Part shown: piece after piece, positions 5,671-25,409 of the stretch
How positions within the stretch are numbered: the stretch's first letter is position 1
How the letters are laid out: each line of letters begins with the position of its first letter
Origin: Chloroflexota bacterium
GTDB lineage: Bacteria > Chloroflexota > UBA11872
Assembly (NCBI GenBank): GCA_026707585.1
Contig: JAPOWQ010000036.1
Location: 1 to 64,000, forward strand
Length of the DNA stretch: 64,000 nucleotides
Direction of reading: 5' to 3'
Notes under the pieces: model-generated
What the model was told of the DNA's origin: nothing
Seen by the model: the letters and a program-made list of their open reading frames with translations, nothing else
The model's database searches: none
Made by a program: the position numbers and the translations under genes

Positions 5671-6924
5671 TCATCCCAGGACATCCTCACGCCAGGCGTA
5701 GCGCTCGCGATCCATGCGGGCGCTCGATCCCAGCAGGGCCGCATGCGTGACGACTGCATCGCCAAAGCGCGCCCGAACCTCGTCCATGGCGACTTCCAGC
5801 GCGCGACGATCGCGCTCATTCATTGACCTCAGCGCAAGTTGCCGCAGTGACGCCGACTGAACGCCCGATACATGAACCCCAACCAGCCGGTAGAGGTCCT
5901 GGTCACGCGCTTCTCGCATTAGCAGGTCCCGGATGGCGCCAAAAATGGTCCGTGTCTGGTCGGTTGGCTTGGTCAGCGTGACCTGCCGCGTGATCGTTCG
6001 GAAGTCTGCGTACCGCAGCTTTAGGACCACGGTGCGTCCCGCGAGCCCCTTCGCGCGTAAGCGTTGTGCAACGTGATCGGCGAGCTGGCGCAGGTAGCGC
6101 AGAACGAGCGCGCGATTACCGGTGTCGCGGCCGAATGTGACCTCGTTGCCTACGGACTTGGCCGTTCGCTCGCTCTCGACATCGCGACCATCGATCCCAC
6201 GAGCCAGGGTGGCTGGCTTACGCAGTTCGCGCATCCGCGCCGGATCGCGGCGCGCAAGATCTCCGATGCTGCGGATTCCGCGGACAGCCAGGCGGGCTTC
6301 GGTCTTTGGACCGATGCCCCAGATCATTCGCACCGGCAGCGGAGCAAGAAAACCTTGCTCGGCGCCTGGCGGCACAATCCGACGACCGTCGGGCTTGGCC
6401 AGGGTCGAGGCGATCTTGGCGACAGACTTGCTGGTCGAGATGCCCACGGAAATCGGTAGATCAACAGTTGTTCGTACCTGGTCCCGAATATGGTCGGCAA
6501 TCGTCCCGGGCGTTCCGAAGCGCCGCTCGCAGCCCGTGACGTCCAGAAATGCCTCGTCCAGCGATAGTGGCTCAACCAGCGGCGTATAGCTCCGGAAGAT
6601 GCGCATGACCTCAACGGACACATCGGCGTACAGCCGCATACGTCCGGGGACGAACTCGGCCTGTGGGCAAAGCCCGGCCGCCTGGCGCAGCGGCATCGCC
6701 GACCGGACGCCAAAGGCGCGAGCCTCATAGGAAGCGGCTGCCACGACGCCCCGCGCATCCCGTGCTCCGCCCACGATGACGGGGCGACCGCGCAATGCCG
6801 GTTGTTCCCGCTGCTCAACCGACGCATAGAAGGCGTCCATGTCCGCGTGCACGATTACCCGCTGCCCCCGCCACTCGGCGGGCGGGCGGCAGCGCTCCGC
6901 AGTGGTGACACGCGTCGTATCCAT
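5671..6924 (-). CDS. dinB: DNA polymerase IV (Y-family translesion polymerase)
   Basis: 'RVIVHADMDAFYASVEQREQPALRGRPVIVGG', 'YTPLVEPLSLDEAFLDVTG', 'ISVGISTSKSVAKIAS', 'WGIGPKTEARL': canonical Y-family motifs. Confidence 0.97.
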   Translation of the reverse strand: MDTTRVTTAERCRPPAEWRGQRVIVHADMDAFYASVEQREQPALRGRPVIVGGARDARGVVAAASYEARAFGVRSAMPLRQAAGLCPQAEFVPGRMRLYADVSVEVMRIFRSYTPLVEPLSLDEAFLDVTGCERRFGTPGTIADHIRDQVRTTVDLPISVGISTSKSVAKIASTLAKPDGRRIVPPGAEQGFLAPLPVRMIWGIGPKTEARLAVRGIRSIGDLARRDPARMRELRKPATLARGIDGRDVESERTAKSVGNEVTFGRDTGNRALVLRYLRQLADHVAQRLRAKGLAGRTVVLKLRYADFRTITRQVTLTKPTDQTRTIFGAIRDLLMREARDQDLYRLVGVHVSGVQSASLRQLALRSMNERDRRALEVAMDEVRARFGDAVVTHAALLGSSARMDRERYAWREDVLG

Positions 6925-6928
6925 GTCC

Positions 6929-6955
6929 GAAGGATACCGTACAATATACGTACGG
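6929..6955 (-). promoter_or_regulatory. Candidate LexA operator/promoter of dinB
   Basis: GAAGGATACCGTACAATATACGTACGG (+ strand), 23/27 identical to the element at 8483-8509 upstream of lexA. Contains the perfect palindrome CCGTAC-N7-GTACGG (6937-6955). Confidence 0.75.
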
Positions 6956-7076
6956 ACAAATTACGAACACGCGGTCGACGTGCGCAGTTCATGTCGAACG
7001 GTCGCTTGACGGACGACACGCGTGAGCTGGATGCAGTCTCGGACCGTGCGACGCCCTGCGTGGCTCGGGCGTTCCG

Positions 7077-7784
7077 CTAGAGGCTGTTTCGAGCTAGCGC
7101 CAATTCCTGAGCGCCCAGTTCTCCGTCGGTGTGTTCCAGCACACGCCGAAAGGCGACTGTGGCCGTCACGGAGTCCCCGGCCATTTGGTAGGCGCGCGCC
7201 AGGGCGAAATCCCAGCGGACGGAGGGGCGATCCGGCCGACTGGCTTCGAGGCGCGCCAGCGCGCGCCGCGCCGTGGCTGGCGACACCTCAACAGCTAGTT
7301 CAGCCAGCACGAGGTCTGCGGTAACTGCTGCTGTGGGCTTGAGCCGTTGGGCATGCTGCAACGCCTCAAGCGCGCCCGGCGCGTCGCCGGCCTTCAGGCG
7401 CACACGGCCTAGCGCTTGCCACACGGCCGAACCTTCAGCGCCGTGCTCCACCGCGGCTTCCAAGCACCGTGCGGCCGAGGCGTGATGGCCGGCGGCGTCC
7501 AGCGCGGCCGCCACGTTGCGATAGAGCCGCGGCCTTAGATCGTCGGCGCCCGATGCGCCAGTTGCTGTGTCAAGCGCCAGATCAAAGGCCTCGCGTGCCG
7601 CCGAACTGTTTCCCTCGGCGGCGTAGCGAACCCCCAGACTGGCCAGGTGCAACGCTGATAAGCGGATTTCCGGGCTGGGTGCTGCGGCGTCAACGGCCAG
7701 TAAGGCGCACTGGGCTGCGGCGTCAACGGCGCCGGCTGCGATCAGATCGGCAATATCGTCGCGGCGATCGTGAATATGCGGCAC
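7077..7784 (-). CDS. TPR-repeat protein immediately downstream of lexA
   Basis: Tandem TPR-like helices ('AVWQALGRVRLKAGDAPGALEALQHAQRLKPTA', 'WDFALARAYQMAGDSVTATVAFRRVLEHTDGE'). Starts 14 nt after the lexA ORF end. Confidence 0.75.
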   Translation of the reverse strand: MPHIHDRRDDIADLIAAGAVDAAAQCALLAVDAAAPSPEIRLSALHLASLGVRYAAEGNSSAAREAFDLALDTATGASGADDLRPRLYRNVAAALDAAGHHASAARCLEAAVEHGAEGSAVWQALGRVRLKAGDAPGALEALQHAQRLKPTAAVTADLVLAELAVEVSPATARRALARLEASRPDRPSVRWDFALARAYQMAGDSVTATVAFRRVLEHTDGELGAQELALARNSL

Positions 7785-7797
7785 GGCTCGGGCCGTG

Positions 7798-8397
7798 TCA
7801 GAGCCGCCGCATGATCGAGGTCACCCGCCCTTGCACGCGAACAGCGTCGGCGTAGATTGGCGCCATGTCGGCATTGGCTGGTTGCAGGCGGACGCGGTCA
7901 GCCTCGCGAAAGATCCGCTTCAGCGTCACCGAGCCGTCATCCAGCATGGCCACGCCAATCTCCCCATCGCGAACCGTCTCAACCGGCTCCACGATCACGA
8001 GGTCTCCGTCGCAAATGTGGTCCTCAATCATGCTGTCGCCGCGCACCCGCAGGGCATAGGCGCTGCTGTTTGGCGACATGTCGGCGGCGACCGCGACTGT
8101 ATCCAGCCGTTCTTCATAAGCATCAATCGGAGCCCCGGCGGCAATCTCGCCAACGATCGGCACATTCACCACCCCGCCGGGGATGCCGCCGCTCAGGATT
8201 TCGATGCCGTGCGACTGGCCGGATCGCCGGATGTACCCCTTGCGCTCCAGCACCTCCAGGTGCTGCTGCACGGTGGCCGGCGCGAGACCCAAACCGGCAC
8301 CAATCTCGCGCACGCTCGGCGTATAGCCCTCGTCCTGCACAAACCGCTCGATTGTCTGCAACACACGATGCTGGCGTTGTGTCAGCGGATCGCCCAC
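7798..8397 (-). CDS. lexA: LexA SOS repressor
   Basis: Winged HTH 'LTQRQHRVLQTIERFVQDEGYTPSVREIGAGLGLAPATVQQHLEVLERKGYIRR' and S24 domain 'LRVRGDSMIEDHICDGDLVIVEP' with the catalytic Ser context. Confidence 0.96.
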   Translation of the reverse strand: MGDPLTQRQHRVLQTIERFVQDEGYTPSVREIGAGLGLAPATVQQHLEVLERKGYIRRSGQSHGIEILSGGIPGGVVNVPIVGEIAAGAPIDAYEERLDTVAVAADMSPNSSAYALRVRGDSMIEDHICDGDLVIVEPVETVRDGEIGVAMLDDGSVTLKRIFREADRVRLQPANADMAPIYADAVRVQGRVTSIMRRL

Positions 8398-8482
8398 CGC
8401 AAGCCGTCCTTGCGCGCGCCTCGGTGCTCGTCGCGTGCACGGTGTGTGCCACGCTCCAGGCCCAGAGTCCTAACGTGCAGTT

Positions 8483-8509
8483 GAAGGATACCGGACAATA
8501 AGCGAACGG
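8483..8509 (-). promoter_or_regulatory. Candidate LexA operator/promoter of lexA-TPR
   Basis: GAAGGATACCGGACAATAAGCGAACGG (+ strand), 23/27 identical to the dinB element. Half-sites CCGGAC-N7-GAACGG. Confidence 0.7.
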
Positions 8510-8549
8510 TCAAGCGGAGCGGTGACGCCGGAGTGCAGATGCCGTGAAC

Positions 8550-15569: not shown

Positions 15570-15647
15570 GCCCTCGCGCCGGCCGAGTCGACGCTCGGCC
15601 GTGCGCGGGTGGAGTTGGCCTGGCGCCCTTGTTCGCCGACAGGCTCT

Positions 15648-18600
15648 ATGCGTACGTTCCGCACGAACAGGGTCGGTGCCCGAAGGCAATGGCGGTTTCC
15701 TCGAGTCAGCGCGCGTGTGATTGCCCTGGCCCTGCTCGCCGCATTTGTCATGGTGACGGCGCTCTCCGGCGACGCGTCAGCTTCCTCGTCGTCACCGAAC
15801 GACGGCGACGCGCCCAACACCTTGTCCACCCCGGACCCAACGCCCACGGGGGCTCTCACCCCCGAGCCCGTGCCGACTGAAGCTCCCACGCCCGAGCCGA
15901 CCCCGACCCCCGAACCGACGGCGACTCCCGAGCCCACGCCCGAGCCGACCCCGACCCCCGAACCGACGGCGACTCCCGAGCCCACCCCCGAGCCGACGCC
16001 CGCACCGACTGCAACACCCGAGCCCACGCCGACTCCGGACCCGGACCCCTCGTCGGAGCCTCAGGCGGAATTGCCGCCCTACTTCCCGGCAGCCATGAAC
16101 CGGATCGAGTTCGACAAGGACGAGGACATCGGCACGCAGACGCTGCCGGAAGCCGCAGGCGGCGCCGGCGGCTTCGCCTACAGCCTGTCCGCGGACCTGC
16201 CGGCGGGCCTCTCGTTCGATCCGGAGACCCGTGCCCTTACCGGCACGCCTACCGCGGCGGGCGAATACACGATGACCTACACCGCCACCGACGAAGACGG
16301 TGAAGAGACATCATTTGACTTCACCATCGCCGTTCTTGCCGATCCGCCCACGGCGAGGCTTGACAACTCGATAGCCTCGGACTTGGTGAGACCGGGCACG
16401 CCGTCAGTGACGCGCACCCAATTCGACAAGCAGACGAACGCGGCCCTGGACGTGACCTGGACGGCCCCGCCCATCTCGATCGGCATCCAGAGCTACCAGG
16501 CGCGCTACCGCAAGCAGGGCACTACGACGTGGCGTACGTTCAATGAAACCTGGCTGGGCGCCAACACGCGCAGCCTCACCATCAATTCCCTGGAAAAGGG
16601 CGCCATCTACGACGTGCAACTGCGCGCCTACTACCAGGGCGGCACCTGGAGCCTGTGGTCGCACTCCGGCTCCGCGCGGACCAACCGTCCGCCCACCAAA
16701 ACCAACGTCACGATTGCCGACTGGAACACGCTGTGGCCGGCAAAGTCGAACAACGTGCTTTCGAACCTCCTTCAGGATGCTGACGGCGACACGCTGACTT
16801 GGGAAGTCATTTCGCAATATCCCGGCGTCGTCAAGCTCTGGACATCGACAGACGACGAACTGGGGGACATCTACACGACGCAGGTCCTCAACCCCGGTTC
16901 GTCGATCGTCAGTTACGGGGCGCGTGACGCCTATGGCGGCTACGTCGCTCACGTGTATACGGTTACGGCCACCGCAAACAGGACGGGCAGCGTCGCTGAG
17001 ACTGCCGCGCCCGGGACGCAGGTGAGCATTCCCAGTAGCACCGGCACACCCTACGGCGACGAGACGCTCAGCTACACCCTCACCGGCGAGGCGGCGAGCT
17101 CCGGGGCGTTCGAGATCGACTCGACAACCGGGCAGATCAGCGTCAAGCAAGGCGCCAGCCTGGACTACGAAACCAAGAGCTCCTACACCGGGCAGAAGCG
17201 CTGGTCGGTGCAGGACCAGGCGGCCGTCGTCAATCTGACCATCAACATCACCGACGTCGAAGTCGGCAAGCCTGCCGCGCCCACCCTGGCCCGCGTCGAG
17301 TTCAGCGAGCCGACCAACCCGGCCCTGGACGTGACCTGGACGCCGCCGGCCGCCAATGGGTTCACCATCACCTGGTACCAGCTGCGGTACCGCAAGCAGG
17401 CGGCCGCGGGTGCGGAGCCCGCCGAGTGGACGGTCTACAGCGAGCGGGTGCTGCAGAAGAAAGACACCAGCCTCAGGCTGTCGGACCTTGAGGCCGGCGC
17501 GACCTACGAGGTGCAAGTGCGCGCCGGCACGAATGAAGAGGGCCTGGGCCCCTGGTCGGACTCGGGAACCGGGCAGGCCAACTCGGCGCCGCAGTGGACC
17601 CAACTCGTCGCCCAGGACAAGAGTATCTCGTGGGGTTCCGTGGCCCGACTTCCGCTCGGTGGCCATTTCACGGATGCGGACGGCGACACCCTGACCCACC
17701 ACACCTCCTCGGAGTACCCCGGCATCGTGAGCGCCTGGATCGAGGATGGGCCCTGGGTGGTCGTAGAGGCGCGCAATCCGGCCACGTCCACCGTCACCTA
17801 CTGGGCGACGGACGCCTATGGCGGTCGCTCCCCGTCCGGCCCCTGGAAAATCACGGGCGTCGCCAACCCGACCCGGAACATCGCCGAGAACTCCGCGGCC
17901 GGGACCAACGTCGGTCGGGCCGTCCAGGGGAACGCCTACGGCGACGAGACCCTGACCCACTCGATGTCGGGTGAGATCGAGACGTCCGGGATGTTTGTCA
18001 TCGACTCGTCAACCGGCCAGATCAGCGTCAAGCAAGGCGCCAGCCTGGACTACGAGACCAAGAGCTCCTACACCGGCAAGGTGCACTGGACGGTGCAGGA
18101 GCAGGCCGTCGTTGCCAACCTCACCATCAATGTGACCGACATCGAGCCCGGCCAGCCCGGCACGCCAACGGTCACGCGTACGACGTTCAGCGAGCCGTCC
18201 AATCCGGCCTTGGACCTGTCCTGGACGGCGGCGGCGGCTAACGGACTGACCATTTCCGCCTACGAAGTTCAGTACCGCAAGCAAGTCGCCGAGGGCGAGA
18301 CGCCCAATGCCTGGACGGCGTACACCTACACCGACTCCGAAGAACAGGTCACCAGCAAGCTGTCGGCATCCGCCCGAAGTCTGAATCTGCCGGACCTGGA
18401 CGCGGGCGCCACCTACGAGATACAGGTGCGCGCCGTAACCGACGAAGAGGCCGGCGGCCCCTGGTCGGCCACCGGCTCCGGCCAGGCCAACCGCGCGCCG
18501 CGCCGCACAAGCGGCGGATACCCCCCCGGGCAGTTTGGTTTCGGCGCCAGGGTTCAACTTGGAGTTGTTGACATCGGCACCCTTTTCGCCGACGCGGACG

Positions 18601-21600
18601 GTGACGCCCTGACCTTTTCAACCTCGTCACCGTATCCCGGCCTGGTGAAGACCTGGTTTACCGACGCCACTGGAGACATGAGGGTATTTCACGCGATCAA
18701 CCCGACCCCGGCCTCGGGTATTCAAATCCCATTCCGCGCGCACGACGCGTACGGCGGGGTTGCTGTTGGCTATTGGAAGGTAACTGTCGTCGCCAACCCA
18801 GCCCGGAGCGTTGCCGAGAATTCCCCCGCCGGGACGAACGTGGGACGGGTCGTGCAGGGAGTTCCCTACGACGACGGCAACGACGAAACCGACGACGCGC
18901 TGACCCACACGCTGACCGGCGAGGCGGCGACCTCCGGGCTCTTCGTGATTGACGCTGCCACCGGCCAGATCAGTGTCAAGGAAGGCGCCAGCCTGGACTA
19001 CGAGACCAAGAATTCCTACACCGGCAAGGTGCACTGGACGGTGCAGGACCAGGCCGTCTTTGCCAGCCTCACCATCAACGTCACCGACGTCGAGGCCGGC
19101 CAGCCCGGCACGCCAACGGTCACGCGCACGACCTTCAGCGAAGCGTCGAATCCGGCCCTTGACGTCACGTGGACCGCCGCGGCCGCGAACGGCCTGACCA
19201 TCACCGGCTACGAAGTCCAGTACCGCAAGCAAGTCGCCGAGGGCGAAACCCCCAACGTCTGGACGACCTACACCTACACCGACCACGAAGAGAACGTCAC
19301 CAGCAAGCTGCCGGCAGCCGCCCGGAGCCTGAATCTGCCGGACCTGGACGCCGGCGCCACCCACGAAGTGCAGGTGCGCGCCGTGACCAGCGAGGAGGCC
19401 GAGGGCCCCTGGTCGGCCACCGGCTCCGGCCAGGCCAACCGCGCGCCGACTGCCACCAGCGCGCCCTTCAACGGCGGCACGTTCGAGGTCGGCCGCCAGG
19501 TCGACTACCGCGAATCCGGGGCCGGCGCGCTGGGGGTCATGTTCGCCGACGCCGATGGCGATGCGCTGACCTACGCCGCCGCCGCTCAGCATCCCGCCCT
19601 GCTCGGCGTCAGCCTGTCCGGTGACGCCGGCGAGGCCCACTTGCGGGCCACCCTGCGCAACCAGGGCTCGTCGAAGCTGACGTACACCGCCAGCGACGCC
19701 TACGGCGGGTCCGTGACCCGGACCGCCACCATTGCTATCTCCGCCAGGACGAGCCGCAGCGTTGCCGAAAACTCCGCCGCCGGCACCGCCGTCGGGGCCC
19801 CGGTGACGGGCACGCCCTACAACGGCGTCGCCCTGAGCTACACGCTGCAGGGCAAGGCGAAGGACTCCGGCAAGTTCGTCATCGACTCGGCCAGCGGCCA
19901 GATCAGCGTCGCGGATGGCGCGACGCTCGACTACGAGACGGATAACGCCCACCGGGAGACAGAGACGTCAAACGGCGAGGTCATTGCCAAGTTCTACCGC
20001 GGCGAGGTGCACTACACCGTCGATGGCCACGCCGCCGTCATCACCGTCAACATCAACGTCACGAATCTCACGACCGGCCAGCCGGACGCCCCCACGCTCG
20101 CCCGCACCACCTTCAGCGAGCCGTCCAACCCGGCCCTCGACGTCAGCTGGATCGCCCCCGCGGCGGTCACCGGCGTCACCATCAGCGGCTACCAGGTCCA
20201 GTACCGCAAGCAAGTCGCCGAGGGTGAAACGCCCAACGCCTGGACGACCTACACCTACACCGACCACGAAGAGAACGTCACCAGCAAGCTGCCGGCAACC
20301 GCCCGGAGCCTGAATCTGCCGGACCTGGACGCCGGCGCCACCTACGAGGCGCAGGTGCGCGCGCTCAGCAACGAGGGCACCGGCCCCTGGTCGGCCACCG
20401 GCTCCGGCCGGGCCAACCGGCCGCCGCGGAGCACGGAACCGGCCAACCTCCAACCCAGCTATACCCTTCTGTGGGGCGGAGACGACTCCGTAATTACACT
20501 CAGTGACAAATTTGCGGACGCCGACAGCGACACGCTGACCTATTCGGCCTCGGCGCAGTATCCCGGCGTGCTCAGGGTCTCTATCGAGGGTGAAAACTCC
20601 GACAAGCTGCGGATCCACGTCCTCAACCCGTCCACGTCAACGGTCACCTACGGGGTGTCCGACCCGTACGGCGGCTACGCCTCGAAGACCATTGACGTCA
20701 GCGGCTCCGCCGAGACCATCAACGGCGCGGATCTGAGCCGAAGCGTGGCCGAGAACTCCCCCGCCGGCACGGCGGTGGGAGACCCTGTAACCGGGACGCC
20801 CTACGACGACGGCGACGATCAGACCGACGATGCGCTGACCTATGCGCTGACGGGCGAGGCGGCGACCTCCAGGGCCTTCGTCATCGACTCGGCCACCGGC
20901 CAGATCAGCGTCAAACAGGGCGCCACCATCGACTACGAGGCCAAGAGCTCCTATACAGGCAAGGTGAAATGGACCGTGCAGGGTCAGGCGGCCGTCGCCG
21001 ACCTGACCATCAACGTCACTGACCTCGAGGCCGGCCAGCCCGACGCGCCGACGGTGACGCGGACCGAGTTCAGCGAACCGACCAACCCGGCGCTGGACGT
21101 GACCTGGACGGCGCCCGCCGCCAGCGGCGCCACCATCACCGGCTACGAGGTCCAGTACCGCAAGCAGGTCGCCGACGGTGAGACACCCAACGCCTGGACC
21201 ACGTACACCTACACCGACCCCAACGACGAAACCGAGACGATCAGCATGCTGCCAGCGGCAACCACCAGCCTCACCCTGCGTGACCTGGACGCTGGCGCCA
21301 CCTACGAGGCGCAGGTGCGAGCGCTCACCTCGCTTGAGGGCGAAGGCCCCTGGTCGGACTCCGGGTCCGGCCAGGCCAACCGCCCGCCGACTGCCACCAG
21401 CGCGCTCTTCAATGGCGGTACATTCGGGGTCGGCAGCCAGGTCGACTACCGCGAGACCGGGGCCGGCGCGCTTGGGGTCATGTTCGCCGACGCCGATGGC
21501 GACACCTTGACCTACGCGGCTGCCGCCGAGCATCCCGCCTTGCTCGGCGTCACCCTTTCCGGTGACGCCGGCGCAGCCCATTTGCAGGCCACCCTGCTCA

Positions 21601-24600
21601 ACCAGGGCTCGTCAGCGCTGACCTTCACGGCCAGCGACCCCTACGGCGGGTCCGTGACGCGCAATGCCACCATCGCGATCTCCGCGACGGAGAGCCGCAG
21701 CATTGCCGAGAACGCCCCCGCCGGCACCCCCGTCGGCGCGCCCGTGACCGGCACGCCCTACGGGGACGAATCGCTCAGCTATTCGCTGACCGGCGAGGCG
21801 GCCACCTCCGGGGCCTTCGCGATCGACGCCGCCAGCGGCCAGATCAGCGTCGCGTCGGGCGCCAACCTGGATTACGAGATCAAGGCGTCGTACACCGGCA
21901 CGGTCGAATACACCGTGCAGGGGCATGCGGCGGCCATCGACGTCACCATCAATGTGGCGGATCTGACGCCGCCCGCGCGGCCGGACGCGCCAACGCTCAC
22001 CCGCAAGACGTTCAGCAAGCCCTCCAACCCGGCCCTGGACGTCACCTGGACCGCGCCCGCGGCGGTTACCGGCGTCACCCTCGGCGGCTACGAAGCCCGG
22101 TACCGGAAGCAAGTCGCCGACGGTGAGACCCCCGAGGCTTGGACGACGTACACCTACACCGACCCCGTCACCAACACCGCCACCAGTCAGTTGTCGGCGG
22201 CGTCCACCAGCCTCACCCTGTCGGACCTGGACGCCGGCGCCACGTACGAGGTGCAGATTCGCGCCGTCAGCAGCGGCGGTGAGCGCGGCCCCTGGTCCGC
22301 CACCGGCGCCGGCCAGGCCAACCGGCCGCCTACGACGACCGGCCTGGCTCTCCAGGATCGCGAACTCACGCGTGGCGAACCAATCGATGAATCACTCGAG
22401 ACTCACTACTTCCAAGATCCCGATGGTGACGATTTGAGCTTCTCCGCGTCCGCGCAACATCCCGGGATTCTCAGAGCCGGAATCACGGGCGAGTTCGAAA
22501 CGTCGCTCACCGTTGAAGGCATCAATCCCAGCTCGTCCACCGTTACCTACGGCGCGCACGACGGCTACGGCGGATACGTTTCGCGCAGCTTCGTCATCAC
22601 TGTTACCGAGAGCGTGACTCGGAGCGTGCGCGAGGACGTGCCCGCCGGCACGCTGGTGGGCGCCCCGGTGACCGGGACGCCCTATCAGGGTGAAGCCGTG
22701 AGCTACACGTTGACGGGCGAAGCGGCGGATTCGGGCGCCTTCGCGATCGACGCCGACAGCGGCCAGATCAGCGTGGCGGAAGACGCCAGCCTGGACTACC
22801 AGGCCAAGAGTTCCTACACCGGCACGGTGGAGTACACGGTGCAAGACCAGCCGGCGACGATTGCGCTGACCATCGAGGTGACGCGCAAACCCACAGTCTC
22901 AAACGACCCGCTCCAGCGGCCCACGAAGGTGCCGCCGCGGGCGCCGGACCGGCCGGCGGTCTCGCGGTCGGACTCCCACCCCACCACCGCGCTGGACGTC
23001 ACCTGGACCGCACCGGATACCCGCGGCGGTCCGGCCATCACCGACTACGACCTGGAGTATCGGAAGACGAACGGCGGCCACTGGGTGGATCACCCCTTCA
23101 CCGGCGCGGCTACCGAATCCACGCTCACCGGCCTGACGCCGGACACGACGTACGAGGTCCGCGTCCGGGCACGCAACACCGACGGTCGCAGCGGGTGGTC
23201 GTCGCCAGGCGAAGGCGCCACGGCGCGACACAACCTTCCGCCGCAGTTCGCCTCGTCGGCCACGGAGCGCTCCGTGCCCGAAAACGCGCCGGCCGGCACC
23301 CGGCTGGGCGACCCGGTCACGGCCAGCGATTCCGACGGTCACTCGCTGACCTACTCGCTGCAAGAAGCCTCGACCCTCTTCGATCTGGATTCGGCCACCG
23401 GTCAGCTCAGCGTGGCCGCGGGCGCGTCCCTGGACTACGAAGCCGCGGAGTCCTACACCCTGGTCATCCAGGTCAGCGACGGCCTCGACAGCGGGTGGAC
23501 CGGCGACAACCAGTCCGTTGACGCCAAAATCACGGTGACCGTGACCGTGACCGACGTGGCCGAGGCGCCGGCGCAGCCGGACGGGCCGGCCGTGACGACG
23601 CCGGCCGGTGGGTCGACAACCTCGCTGAACGTGACATGGACGGCGCCGGACATGACCGGCAAGCCCGCCATCACGGACTACGACGTGCAGTACCGACCGG
23701 TCGGCACCGCGGCCTGGACGGACCACGAGTTCGCCGGCGCAGGGACCGAGACAACCCTCACGGGTCTCGACTTCGGGAACATGTACGAAGTGCAGGTGCT
23801 CGCCCGCAACGACGAAGGCGATAGCCCCTGGTCGCGGTCCGGCACTGGCGTCACCGGACCCACCCGGCTGAACGCGACGCGGCAGGTGTCCGAGGACGCG
23901 CCGTCCGGCGCTCCGGTGGGCGCTCCGGTAACCGCGACCAACCCGCGGGGGCACACACTCGCCTACGCCATTGTGAATGATGCGGGGAGCGGATCGAGTG
24001 GTGGGCGCAACCAGTTCACCATCAACAGCCGCACCGGACAGATCAGCCTTGCCGAGGGCGCGAACCTGGACCGCCAGGCAGCCGATCGGCACACCCTGAC
24101 GGTGCGTGCCAGCCACACGGCGTCCGGGTCAGCCGACGATCACATCGTCAACGCCGTCATCAGCGTGGTCATCAACGTCACCCCGGGTCCAGTCCAGCCC
24201 GGCGACCGCAACCACCCGCCGGGATTCGGGAACCAGCCCGGCAATCCGGACACGGTTCGCCGCTATGTGGCCGAGAACTCGGCCGCCGGGACCATCGTGG
24301 GCGACCCGGTAACGGCGACCGATGCCGACGGTGACGCGTTGACCTACGCGCTGTCCGGCTCGAACGCCTTCGTTATCGCCGCCGCCACCGGTCAGATTCG
24401 CGTGGCGCCCGGCGCCGTGCTGGACTACGAGACTACCAACGCCTACTCGGTCACGGTCAGCGTCACCGACGGCAAAGACGCCCAGGGCAACCGGGACGCC
24501 ACCGTGGATGCCACGCTGGACGTGACCATCCGGGTGCTGGACCAGCTGCCGCCCAATCGACCCGACGCGCCAACCGTGGCGCCGTCGACCGCCGATTCAA

Positions 24601-25409
24601 CGTCGCTGCACGTGACCTGGACGGCTCCGGCCAACCCCGATCGGCCGGCCATCACGGACTACGACCTGCGCTACCGAAAGGTGGGCGCGGCCTCCTGGAC
24701 CGCGCACGCCTTCGTCGGCGCCGGCGCCATGACCTGGATCTCAGGTCTGGACCCCGACACGGCCTACGAAGTGCAGGTTGCCGCGGCCAACGTGGAGGGC
24801 ATCGGTCCCTGGTCGGTCGCCGGTACGGGCCGCACGCCCTCACCGAGCGACGCGAACGATTCCAACCAGCCGAAGGACCCGAGTAGCCCCAATGGTCCAA
24901 GTGGCTCCAACGGCCCCAACAATGCCAGCGGCCCTGGCGACTCGGTCAACCCCCGAGGCGACTCGGGCAATCCGGCGTCGACAAATCCGCCTGGCGGTTC
25001 CTCCGACGGCCCCTCCGTGACCAATCTGCAGGTTCGCGCCGCGGAACGTCGAGCCTTGGCCCCCGCCACACCCTCGGAACCGATCGAGGCCGGTTACGGC
25101 GGATTCTCACGGGAGCAAGGCGGGTCCATGTTGGCGAGTTCCGCGGTCAACGATCCAATCACGACACTCCTGTCCGGCTTTGGAGCGTGGACGCCCGAAA
25201 AGGCCTTGATATTCAGTTTCGTGTGGCCGGCGCTGCTCGCCGCTTTCGCTCTGCTGTCACAAGTGCTGCAGTGGAAATTCCAAGTGTCCTTGTGGACGGC
25301 AATGCTCGCCGGTCTGACGGCAATCCTCCTCTTCTTCTGGCGACGCCGGAAGAAAGATGAGGACGGAGAGCAAGCCGGCGAGGCGCCGACGCTTAGCCCG
25401 GCGACCTAG
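15648..25409 (+). CDS. Giant modular surface protein: signal peptide, Pro/Thr/Glu-rich linker, about 10 FN3 domains alternating with cadherin-like domains, C-terminal TM anchor
   Basis: ORF from 15609 (GTG); ATG at 15648 better fits the signal 'RVIALALLAAFVMVTALSGDASA'. FN3 pattern 'ALDVTWTAP...YEVQYRKQ...LTLRDLDAGATYEVQVRA...GPWSATGSGQANRPP'. Cadherin-like 'RSVAENSPAGTAVGDPVTGTPY...FVIDSATGQISVKQGATIDYEAKSSYTGKV...LTINVTD'. C-terminal hydrophobic helices followed by RRRKK. Confidence 0.93.
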   Translation: MRTFRTNRVGARRQWRFPRVSARVIALALLAAFVMVTALSGDASASSSSPNDGDAPNTLSTPDPTPTGALTPEPVPTEAPTPEPTPTPEPTATPEPTPEPTPTPEPTATPEPTPEPTPAPTATPEPTPTPDPDPSSEPQAELPPYFPAAMNRIEFDKDEDIGTQTLPEAAGGAGGFAYSLSADLPAGLSFDPETRALTGTPTAAGEYTMTYTATDEDGEETSFDFTIAVLADPPTARLDNSIASDLVRPGTPSVTRTQFDKQTNAALDVTWTAPPISIGIQSYQARYRKQGTTTWRTFNETWLGANTRSLTINSLEKGAIYDVQLRAYYQGGTWSLWSHSGSARTNRPPTKTNVTIADWNTLWPAKSNNVLSNLLQDADGDTLTWEVISQYPGVVKLWTSTDDELGDIYTTQVLNPGSSIVSYGARDAYGGYVAHVYTVTATANRTGSVAETAAPGTQVSIPSSTGTPYGDETLSYTLTGEAASSGAFEIDSTTGQISVKQGASLDYETKSSYTGQKRWSVQDQAAVVNLTINITDVEVGKPAAPTLARVEFSEPTNPALDVTWTPPAANGFTITWYQLRYRKQAAAGAEPAEWTVYSERVLQKKDTSLRLSDLEAGATYEVQVRAGTNEEGLGPWSDSGTGQANSAPQWTQLVAQDKSISWGSVARLPLGGHFTDADGDTLTHHTSSEYPGIVSAWIEDGPWVVVEARNPATSTVTYWATDAYGGRSPSGPWKITGVANPTRNIAENSAAGTNVGRAVQGNAYGDETLTHSMSGEIETSGMFVIDSSTGQISVKQGASLDYETKSSYTGKVHWTVQEQAVVANLTINVTDIEPGQPGTPTVTRTTFSEPSNPALDLSWTAAAANGLTISAYEVQYRKQVAEGETPNAWTAYTYTDSEEQVTSKLSASARSLNLPDLDAGATYEIQVRAVTDEEAGGPWSATGSGQANRAPRRTSGGYPPGQFGFGARVQLGVVDIGTLFADADGDALTFSTSSPYPGLVKTWFTDATGDMRVFHAINPTPASGIQIPFRAHDAYGGVAVGYWKVTVVANPARSVAENSPAGTNVGRVVQGVPYDDGNDETDDALTHTLTGEAATSGLFVIDAATGQISVKEGASLDYETKNSYTGKVHWTVQDQAVFASLTINVTDVEAGQPGTPTVTRTTFSEASNPALDVTWTAAAANGLTITGYEVQYRKQVAEGETPNVWTTYTYTDHEENVTSKLPAAARSLNLPDLDAGATHEVQVRAVTSEEAEGPWSATGSGQANRAPTATSAPFNGGTFEVGRQVDYRESGAGALGVMFADADGDALTYAAAAQHPALLGVSLSGDAGEAHLRATLRNQGSSKLTYTASDAYGGSVTRTATIAISARTSRSVAENSAAGTAVGAPVTGTPYNGVALSYTLQGKAKDSGKFVIDSASGQISVADGATLDYETDNAHRETETSNGEVIAKFYRGEVHYTVDGHAAVITVNINVTNLTTGQPDAPTLARTTFSEPSNPALDVSWIAPAAVTGVTISGYQVQYRKQVAEGETPNAWTTYTYTDHEENVTSKLPATARSLNLPDLDAGATYEAQVRALSNEGTGPWSATGSGRANRPPRSTEPANLQPSYTLLWGGDDSVITLSDKFADADSDTLTYSASAQYPGVLRVSIEGENSDKLRIHVLNPSTSTVTYGVSDPYGGYASKTIDVSGSAETINGADLSRSVAENSPAGTAVGDPVTGTPYDDGDDQTDDALTYALTGEAATSRAFVIDSATGQISVKQGATIDYEAKSSYTGKVKWTVQGQAAVADLTINVTDLEAGQPDAPTVTRTEFSEPTNPALDVTWTAPAASGATITGYEVQYRKQVADGETPNAWTTYTYTDPNDETETISMLPAATTSLTLRDLDAGATYEAQVRALTSLEGEGPWSDSGSGQANRPPTATSALFNGGTFGVGSQVDYRETGAGALGVMFADADGDTLTYAAAAEHPALLGVTLSGDAGAAHLQATLLNQGSSALTFTASDPYGGSVTRNATIAISATESRSIAENAPAGTPVGAPVTGTPYGDESLSYSLTGEAATSGAFAIDAASGQISVASGANLDYEIKASYTGTVEYTVQGHAAAIDVTINVADLTPPARPDAPTLTRKTFSKPSNPALDVTWTAPAAVTGVTLGGYEARYRKQVADGETPEAWTTYTYTDPVTNTATSQLSAASTSLTLSDLDAGATYEVQIRAVSSGGERGPWSATGAGQANRPPTTTGLALQDRELTRGEPIDESLETHYFQDPDGDDLSFSASAQHPGILRAGITGEFETSLTVEGINPSSSTVTYGAHDGYGGYVSRSFVITVTESVTRSVREDVPAGTLVGAPVTGTPYQGEAVSYTLTGEAADSGAFAIDADSGQISVAEDASLDYQAKSSYTGTVEYTVQDQPATIALTIEVTRKPTVSNDPLQRPTKVPPRAPDRPAVSRSDSHPTTALDVTWTAPDTRGGPAITDYDLEYRKTNGGHWVDHPFTGAATESTLTGLTPDTTYEVRVRARNTDGRSGWSSPGEGATARHNLPPQFASSATERSVPENAPAGTRLGDPVTASDSDGHSLTYSLQEASTLFDLDSATGQLSVAAGASLDYEAAESYTLVIQVSDGLDSGWTGDNQSVDAKITVTVTVTDVAEAPAQPDGPAVTTPAGGSTTSLNVTWTAPDMTGKPAITDYDVQYRPVGTAAWTDHEFAGAGTETTLTGLDFGNMYEVQVLARNDEGDSPWSRSGTGVTGPTRLNATRQVSEDAPSGAPVGAPVTATNPRGHTLAYAIVNDAGSGSSGGRNQFTINSRTGQISLAEGANLDRQAADRHTLTVRASHTASGSADDHIVNAVISVVINVTPGPVQPGDRNHPPGFGNQPGNPDTVRRYVAENSAAGTIVGDPVTATDADGDALTYALSGSNAFVIAAATGQIRVAPGAVLDYETTNAYSVTVSVTDGKDAQGNRDATVDATLDVTIRVLDQLPPNRPDAPTVAPSTADSTSLHVTWTAPANPDRPAITDYDLRYRKVGAASWTAHAFVGAGAMTWISGLDPDTAYEVQVAAANVEGIGPWSVAGTGRTPSPSDANDSNQPKDPSSPNGPSGSNGPNNASGPGDSVNPRGDSGNPASTNPPGGSSDGPSVTNLQVRAAERRALAPATPSEPIEAGYGGFSREQGGSMLASSAVNDPITTLLSGFGAWTPEKALIFSFVWPALLAAFALLSQVLQWKFQVSLWTAMLAGLTAILLFFWRRRKKDEDGEQAGEAPTLSPAT
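15891..15986 (+). repeat. 48-bp tandem repeat (two copies) encoding PEPTPTPEPTATPEPT
   Basis: 15891-15938 and 15939-15986 are identical except the last base; a partial third unit follows. Confidence 0.9.

Follow-up and report, generated by a model that had tools for sequence, protein, structure and literature searches.

The lexA and dinB Genes and Their Promoters

The window examined here, a stretch of 64,000 nt from the genome of an uncultured Chloroflexota bacterium (3.92 Mb in 75 contigs), carries on its reverse strand the genes for LexA (nt 7798–8397; TIGR00498, 3.9e-55; S24 peptidase and LexA DNA-binding domain) and for DNA polymerase IV (dinB, nt 5671–6924; NF003015, 2.3e-124). The start codon of lexA is a GTG, kept in relatives, that is preceded by AAGGA and a leader of about 80 nt. 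LexA proteins 71–94% identical to that of the window are encoded at loci in Chloroflexi/Chloroflexota MAGs. Between lexA and dinB, and running in the same direction, is a gene for a TPR-repeat protein (nt 7077–7784, reverse strand). Relatives in the same genus (g1) have lexA and dinB at the same distance from each other, so the TPR gene may be transcribed by read-through from the lexA promoter.

Two matching 27-nt elements described previously upstream of dinB and lexA were found at nt 6929–6955 (GAAGGATACCGTACAATATACGTACGG) and nt 8483–8509 (GAAGGATACCGGACAATAAGCGAACGG). An oriented 24-mer (CCGTNCGNNTATTGTNCGGTATCC), allowing up to three mismatches, has exactly two matches in the 3.92 Mb genome, which are this pair, and the reversed control has none. 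Both elements are predicted LexA operators, situated between the −35 and −10 hexamers of the two genes. For lexA, the −35 hexamer (TTGACC, nt 8508–8513) is invariant in 11 promoters of genus g1 and is separated by a 17 bp spacer from the −10 hexamer (TATCCT, nt 8485–8490; TANNNT in relatives). The spacer holds the LexA box, GTTC-GCTTATT-GTCC (nt 8493–8507); 24 of 24 genomes of the order have a box in the same register. All of these features are on the reverse strand, as are those of dinB.

The inferred promoter of dinB consists of a −35-like hexamer (TTGTCC, nt 6954–6959), conserved in position among relatives, and, 17 bp away, a −10-like hexamer (TATCCT, nt 6931–6936). It carries two boxes. 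Box B (GTAC-GTATATT-GTAC, nt 6939–6953) is a direct repeat of period 11 that is coincidentally also palindromic. Box A (GTTC-GTAATTT-GTCC, nt 6954–6968), which the earlier note overlooked, is in tandem with box B, 15 bp upstream, and overlaps the −35 hexamer; it is kept across the dinB promoters of the family and reads GTTC-N7-GTTC in genus g2. The A of the ATG (nt 6924) is only 7 nt downstream of the inferred −10, so the dinB mRNA is probably leaderless, in line with the very short leader proposed earlier. The suggestion that conservation beyond the box marks a common promoter core also held, the shared TATCC being the −10 element. In the window's genus the arrangement is TTGACC-17 bp-TANNNT at lexA and TTGTCC-17 bp-TANNNT at dinB, and the promoters of 18 family relatives share one architecture, with small variations outside this genus, in which the box occupies the 17 bp spacer.

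Symmetry of the Box

The window's pair of elements had been interpreted as a palindrome, CCGNAC-N7-GNACGG, which would be bound by a symmetric LexA dimer. It is perfect in the dinB copy and retains four of six arm positions in the lexA copy, and a scan of the 64 kb window gave zero-mismatch occurrences at these two sites only; with up to two mismatches, the pattern is at chance level (150 observed against 168 expected). However, the palindrome is not kept in relatives. Across the 24 genomes of the order, the box is a direct repeat, GTNC-N7-GTNY, with a period of 11 bp. Depending on the species, lexA sites read GTTC-N7-GTCC or GTTC-N7-GTCT, and dinB sites GTAC-N7-GTAC, GTAC-N7-GTTC, GTCC-N7-GTAC or GTTC-N7-GTTC, the last three being non-palindromic forms of box B found in other species. 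GTTC-N7-GTAC is also seen among the other species and genes, and the left CC of the palindrome is not conserved.

Half-site column similarity was scored for nine lexA and dinB sites chosen by promoter position alone, a set that is unbiased toward a direct repeat. The direct alignment with period 11 scored +4.9, against −0.2 to −0.3 for the best inverted axis. A larger collection of 25 sites over 12 targets gave +7.5 (direct) and −1.8 (inverted), values that are biased because part of the set was found with the direct-repeat pattern. Inverted symmetry, sought by this scoring in both the 9 and the 25 sites, was not conserved. The dinB copy in the window is palindromic because GTAC is its own reverse complement, while the CCG and CGG arms belong to the sequence that flanks the box in these two promoters, with the final GG immediately 5′ of the −10 hexamer. 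A palindromic operator is, in our judgement, very unlikely, and the motif is best written as GTNC-N7-GTNC, which is distinct from both GAAC-N4-GTTC and CTGT-N8-ACAG, as had been claimed.

Genome-Wide Matches and the Predicted Regulon

Matches to GTTCGNNNTTTGTNCG are clearly in excess in the window's genome, with five exact matches against none for the reversed-pattern control, and 20 against three when one mismatch is allowed. The 19 family genomes gave 71 exact matches, compared with three for the control, but the pattern showed no excess over the control in 16 genomes from three other families of the class, and one divergent genome (G018) had no exact match to it. A looser pattern, GTNCGNNNNTTGTNCG, was dropped as it gave a weak contrast in the window's own genome (16 against 11 for controls).

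Half of the 20 matches in this genome are upstream of ten targets. These are dinB, lexA, mutS, the imuA-like first gene of an imuA-imuB-dnaE2 operon, and genes for an Lhr-type helicase, an Rv2578c/SPL-like (photoproduct-lyase-like) radical SAM protein, an SbcD/Mre11-like nuclease, a DUF72 protein, a DUF5131 protein and an M78 (IrrE/ImmA-like) peptidase. In the sister genus g2, mutS and the M78 gene were matched again, together with yebC and a tcmP-like gene, the last a three-Cys-motif partner look-alike named by eye, for which a Pfam match was absent. In the sister family f2 of the same order, the box is present at lexA, imuA and the radical SAM gene. As the collection covers sites with at most one mismatch, this regulon represents a minimum; the MAGs are incomplete.

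The box occurs above chance at several separate DNA-repair and translesion genes. An alternative reading is that the elements are just a conserved sigma-70 promoter core with no operator function. Their location between −35 and −10 with a 17 bp spacing would suit such a core, and the −10 accounts for the trailing TATCC. However, the sequence of the spacer is itself conserved and recurs at SOS genes; the box is also found outside this promoter context (at mutS, DUF5131 and the upstream dinB box), and both recA and the families with a different LexA lack it. This makes a promoter core alone hardly credible, and the elements are better explained as operators.

The enrichment at other SOS genes that the earlier note had suggested looking for was seen at imuA-imuB-dnaE2, mutS and others, but not at recA. 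The box was absent upstream of recA in every family genome in which that region was read (18 loci), the best matches having three to four mismatches, the same as in shuffled sequences, and recA was ruled out as a target. SOS induction may leave the level of RecA unraised in this family. The recA promoter region carries instead a conserved GATACCATGA, or a similar sequence.

At the M78/IrrE-like metallopeptidase gene, the box lies right at the start codon in both genera (three loci, the window's genome included), and the protein is possibly an SOS-controlled protease. This gene adjoins an FAD-linked-oxidase-like gene (named by eye). A box was also observed at the gene for DUF5131 (phage Gp37/Gp68-like) in the window's genome and at the tcmP-like gene in a different genus (genome G003); that both carry the box suggests that they could form one SOS-controlled module.

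Distribution of Box Types and Features of LexA

The direct repeat stands at every one of the 24 lexA promoters of the order (families f1 and f2), whereas GAAC-N4-GTTC, sought with up to one mismatch, is found at none of them. In other families of the phylum, GAAC-N4-GTTC is found at 38 of 42 lexA genes (35 exact) and the direct repeat at none of the 42, which bears out the idea of a lineage-specific LexA box. Families f3 and f4, which belong to the same class as the order, have the inverted box. Upstream of lexA in G023, a member of f2, there are three half-sites in a row, GTTC-N7-GTTC-N7-GTTC, with an 11 bp period.

The LexA of the order retains a winged HTH and an S24 peptidase with the Ala-Gly cleavage site and the Ser/Lys dyad. 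In the alignment with the other primary LexAs from Chloroflexota, its DNA-binding domain is one residue shorter at the recognition helix (LAPAT-VQQHL compared with, for example, IASTSHVDYHL), and there is a second one-residue deletion in the wing. In the predicted structure (mean pLDDT 82.7, 22 sequences), the fold matches solved LexA structures, the nearest being that of Thermotoga (3k2z), and the first gap falls close to where the recognition helix (residues 40–52) begins. The change of operator coincides with these two deletions in the sequences compared. The first gap is also present in planctomycete LexAs and therefore cannot alone determine which box is used.

Phylogenetic reconstruction placed the LexAs of the order in a single clade (98/97) inside the Chloroflexota part of the tree. 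Acquisition from Acidobacteria or Planctomycetes, considered because of out-of-phylum matches, was rejected on this basis, and in acidobacterial lexA promoters a search for GTTC boxes of the given spacing, direct or inverted, yielded nothing beyond chance matches. A second, diverged LexA-like protein is encoded in several neighbouring families of Chloroflexota (eight loci), and no recognisable GTTC box was found upstream of these genes. These paralogues were rejected as a source of the order's LexA, as they have different HTH segments and other positions in the tree. It has been proposed that operators change after duplication of lexA and loss of the original copy (PMC8565304); the second LexA-like proteins fit such a background, although none of those compared is the source.

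A Probable Direct-Repeat LexA Operator

We consider it highly probable (about 0.92 for the explanation as a whole) that the operator is a direct-repeat LexA box. A LexA dimer would bind two same-facing GTNC half-sites separated by one turn of the helix (GTTC-N7-GTNC, period 11 bp) and, by occupying the −35/−10 spacers of lexA and dinB, would block RNA polymerase, with the two tandem boxes of dinB giving tighter repression. Following DNA damage, the RecA filament would bring about self-cleavage of LexA, which would allow expression of lexA, dinB and the rest of the genes with a box. Within the order, the operator would have changed from the inverted GAAC-N4-GTTC usual in the phylum to the direct repeat, along with the deletions in LexA. 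Counting against this reading are the missing box at recA, a core SOS gene, the lack of an exact match in G018, and the degeneracy of the second half-site, GTN followed by C or T, which may leave the halves unequally bound.

Direct-repeat LexA boxes have been described mainly from Alphaproteobacteria. The GTTC-N7-GTTC direct repeat is the recognised LexA box of that class, as in Rhodobacter and Caulobacter (PMC3323433, PMC9578287, PMC8565304), a match that the earlier note missed. The box of the order resembles it in being a direct repeat with a GTTC half-site, a 7 bp spacer and tandem overlapping boxes, and the SOS gene set, including imuA-imuB-dnaE2, is also similar. Several sites of the order are exactly GTTC-N7-GTTC, and the rest are GTTC-N7-GTNC. 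They differ in the degenerate second half-site (GTNC/GTNT) and in belonging to a different phylum, and the LexA of the order differs from the alphaproteobacterial protein in its shortened recognition-helix segment and wing, with only 30% identity in the DNA-binding domain. The motif itself is known from Alphaproteobacteria; here it occurs in a clade whose LexA, judged by sequence comparison, looks unlike theirs.

The GAAC-N4-GTTC box of Gram-positives and Chloroflexota shares the GTTC half-site and the predicted repression of lexA and SOS genes, but is an inverted repeat with a 4 bp spacer. The cyanobacterial LexA box is AGTACWNWTGTACT (PMC3091678). GTAC half-sites occur in both the cyanobacterial box and that of the order, but the former is inverted with a shorter spacing, while GTAC in the order is one GTNC variant within a direct repeat of period 11.

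The similarity to the alphaproteobacterial box could reflect a common origin, in which the LexAs of the order and of Alphaproteobacteria descend from one direct-repeat-binding ancestor, or the former was acquired from the latter. All three alphaproteobacterial control lexA genes carry GTTC-N7-GTTC, two of them with three half-sites in a row; the run at G023 lexA matches those of Methylobacterium and Sphingomonas. The free LexA tree groups the order with Chloroflexota, apart from Alphaproteobacteria, yet a joint clade with the latter was not rejected by the AU test (p-AU 0.36), and convergence is likely but unproven for this reason. Against a common origin, the recognition segment in Alphaproteobacteria (LxSKSGIHRLI) has its full length, with only 27% identity to that of the order, and Alphaproteobacteria lack both deletions in the DNA-binding domain. 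We regard shared ancestry or transfer as unlikely, and an independent origin of the direct repeat as the likely course. The fuller scenario, which we favour with some reserve, is that it evolved within the order from a GAAC-N4-GTTC ancestor; the GTTC half-site would have been kept, the orientation of one monomer on the DNA flipped, and the two one-residue deletions, in the recognition helix and the wing, would have made or accompanied the switch.

The order bears on the question of how a LexA operator can change radically while the regulon stays. The old inverted and the new direct box are found in families of one class, whose LexAs are about 50% identical and show few candidate changes in the DNA-binding domain, so that the switch is testable with chimeric LexA and two short DNA probes. 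By 2021, 17 LexA motifs had been reported (PMC8565304). In a literature search, with subscription papers mostly outside its coverage, a LexA box of this group of Chloroflexota was not found described, and the regulon given here is the first SOS map known to us for these uncultured bacteria.

Elsewhere in the window (nt 15609–25409, forward strand) is a gene for a putative surface protein of 3266 aa with about ten fibronectin type III and eight cadherin-like repeats, a Pro/Thr-rich N-terminal region and a hydrophobic C-terminal segment. We take it to be a eukaryotic-like repeat protein, a type that has been reported from symbionts of sponges.
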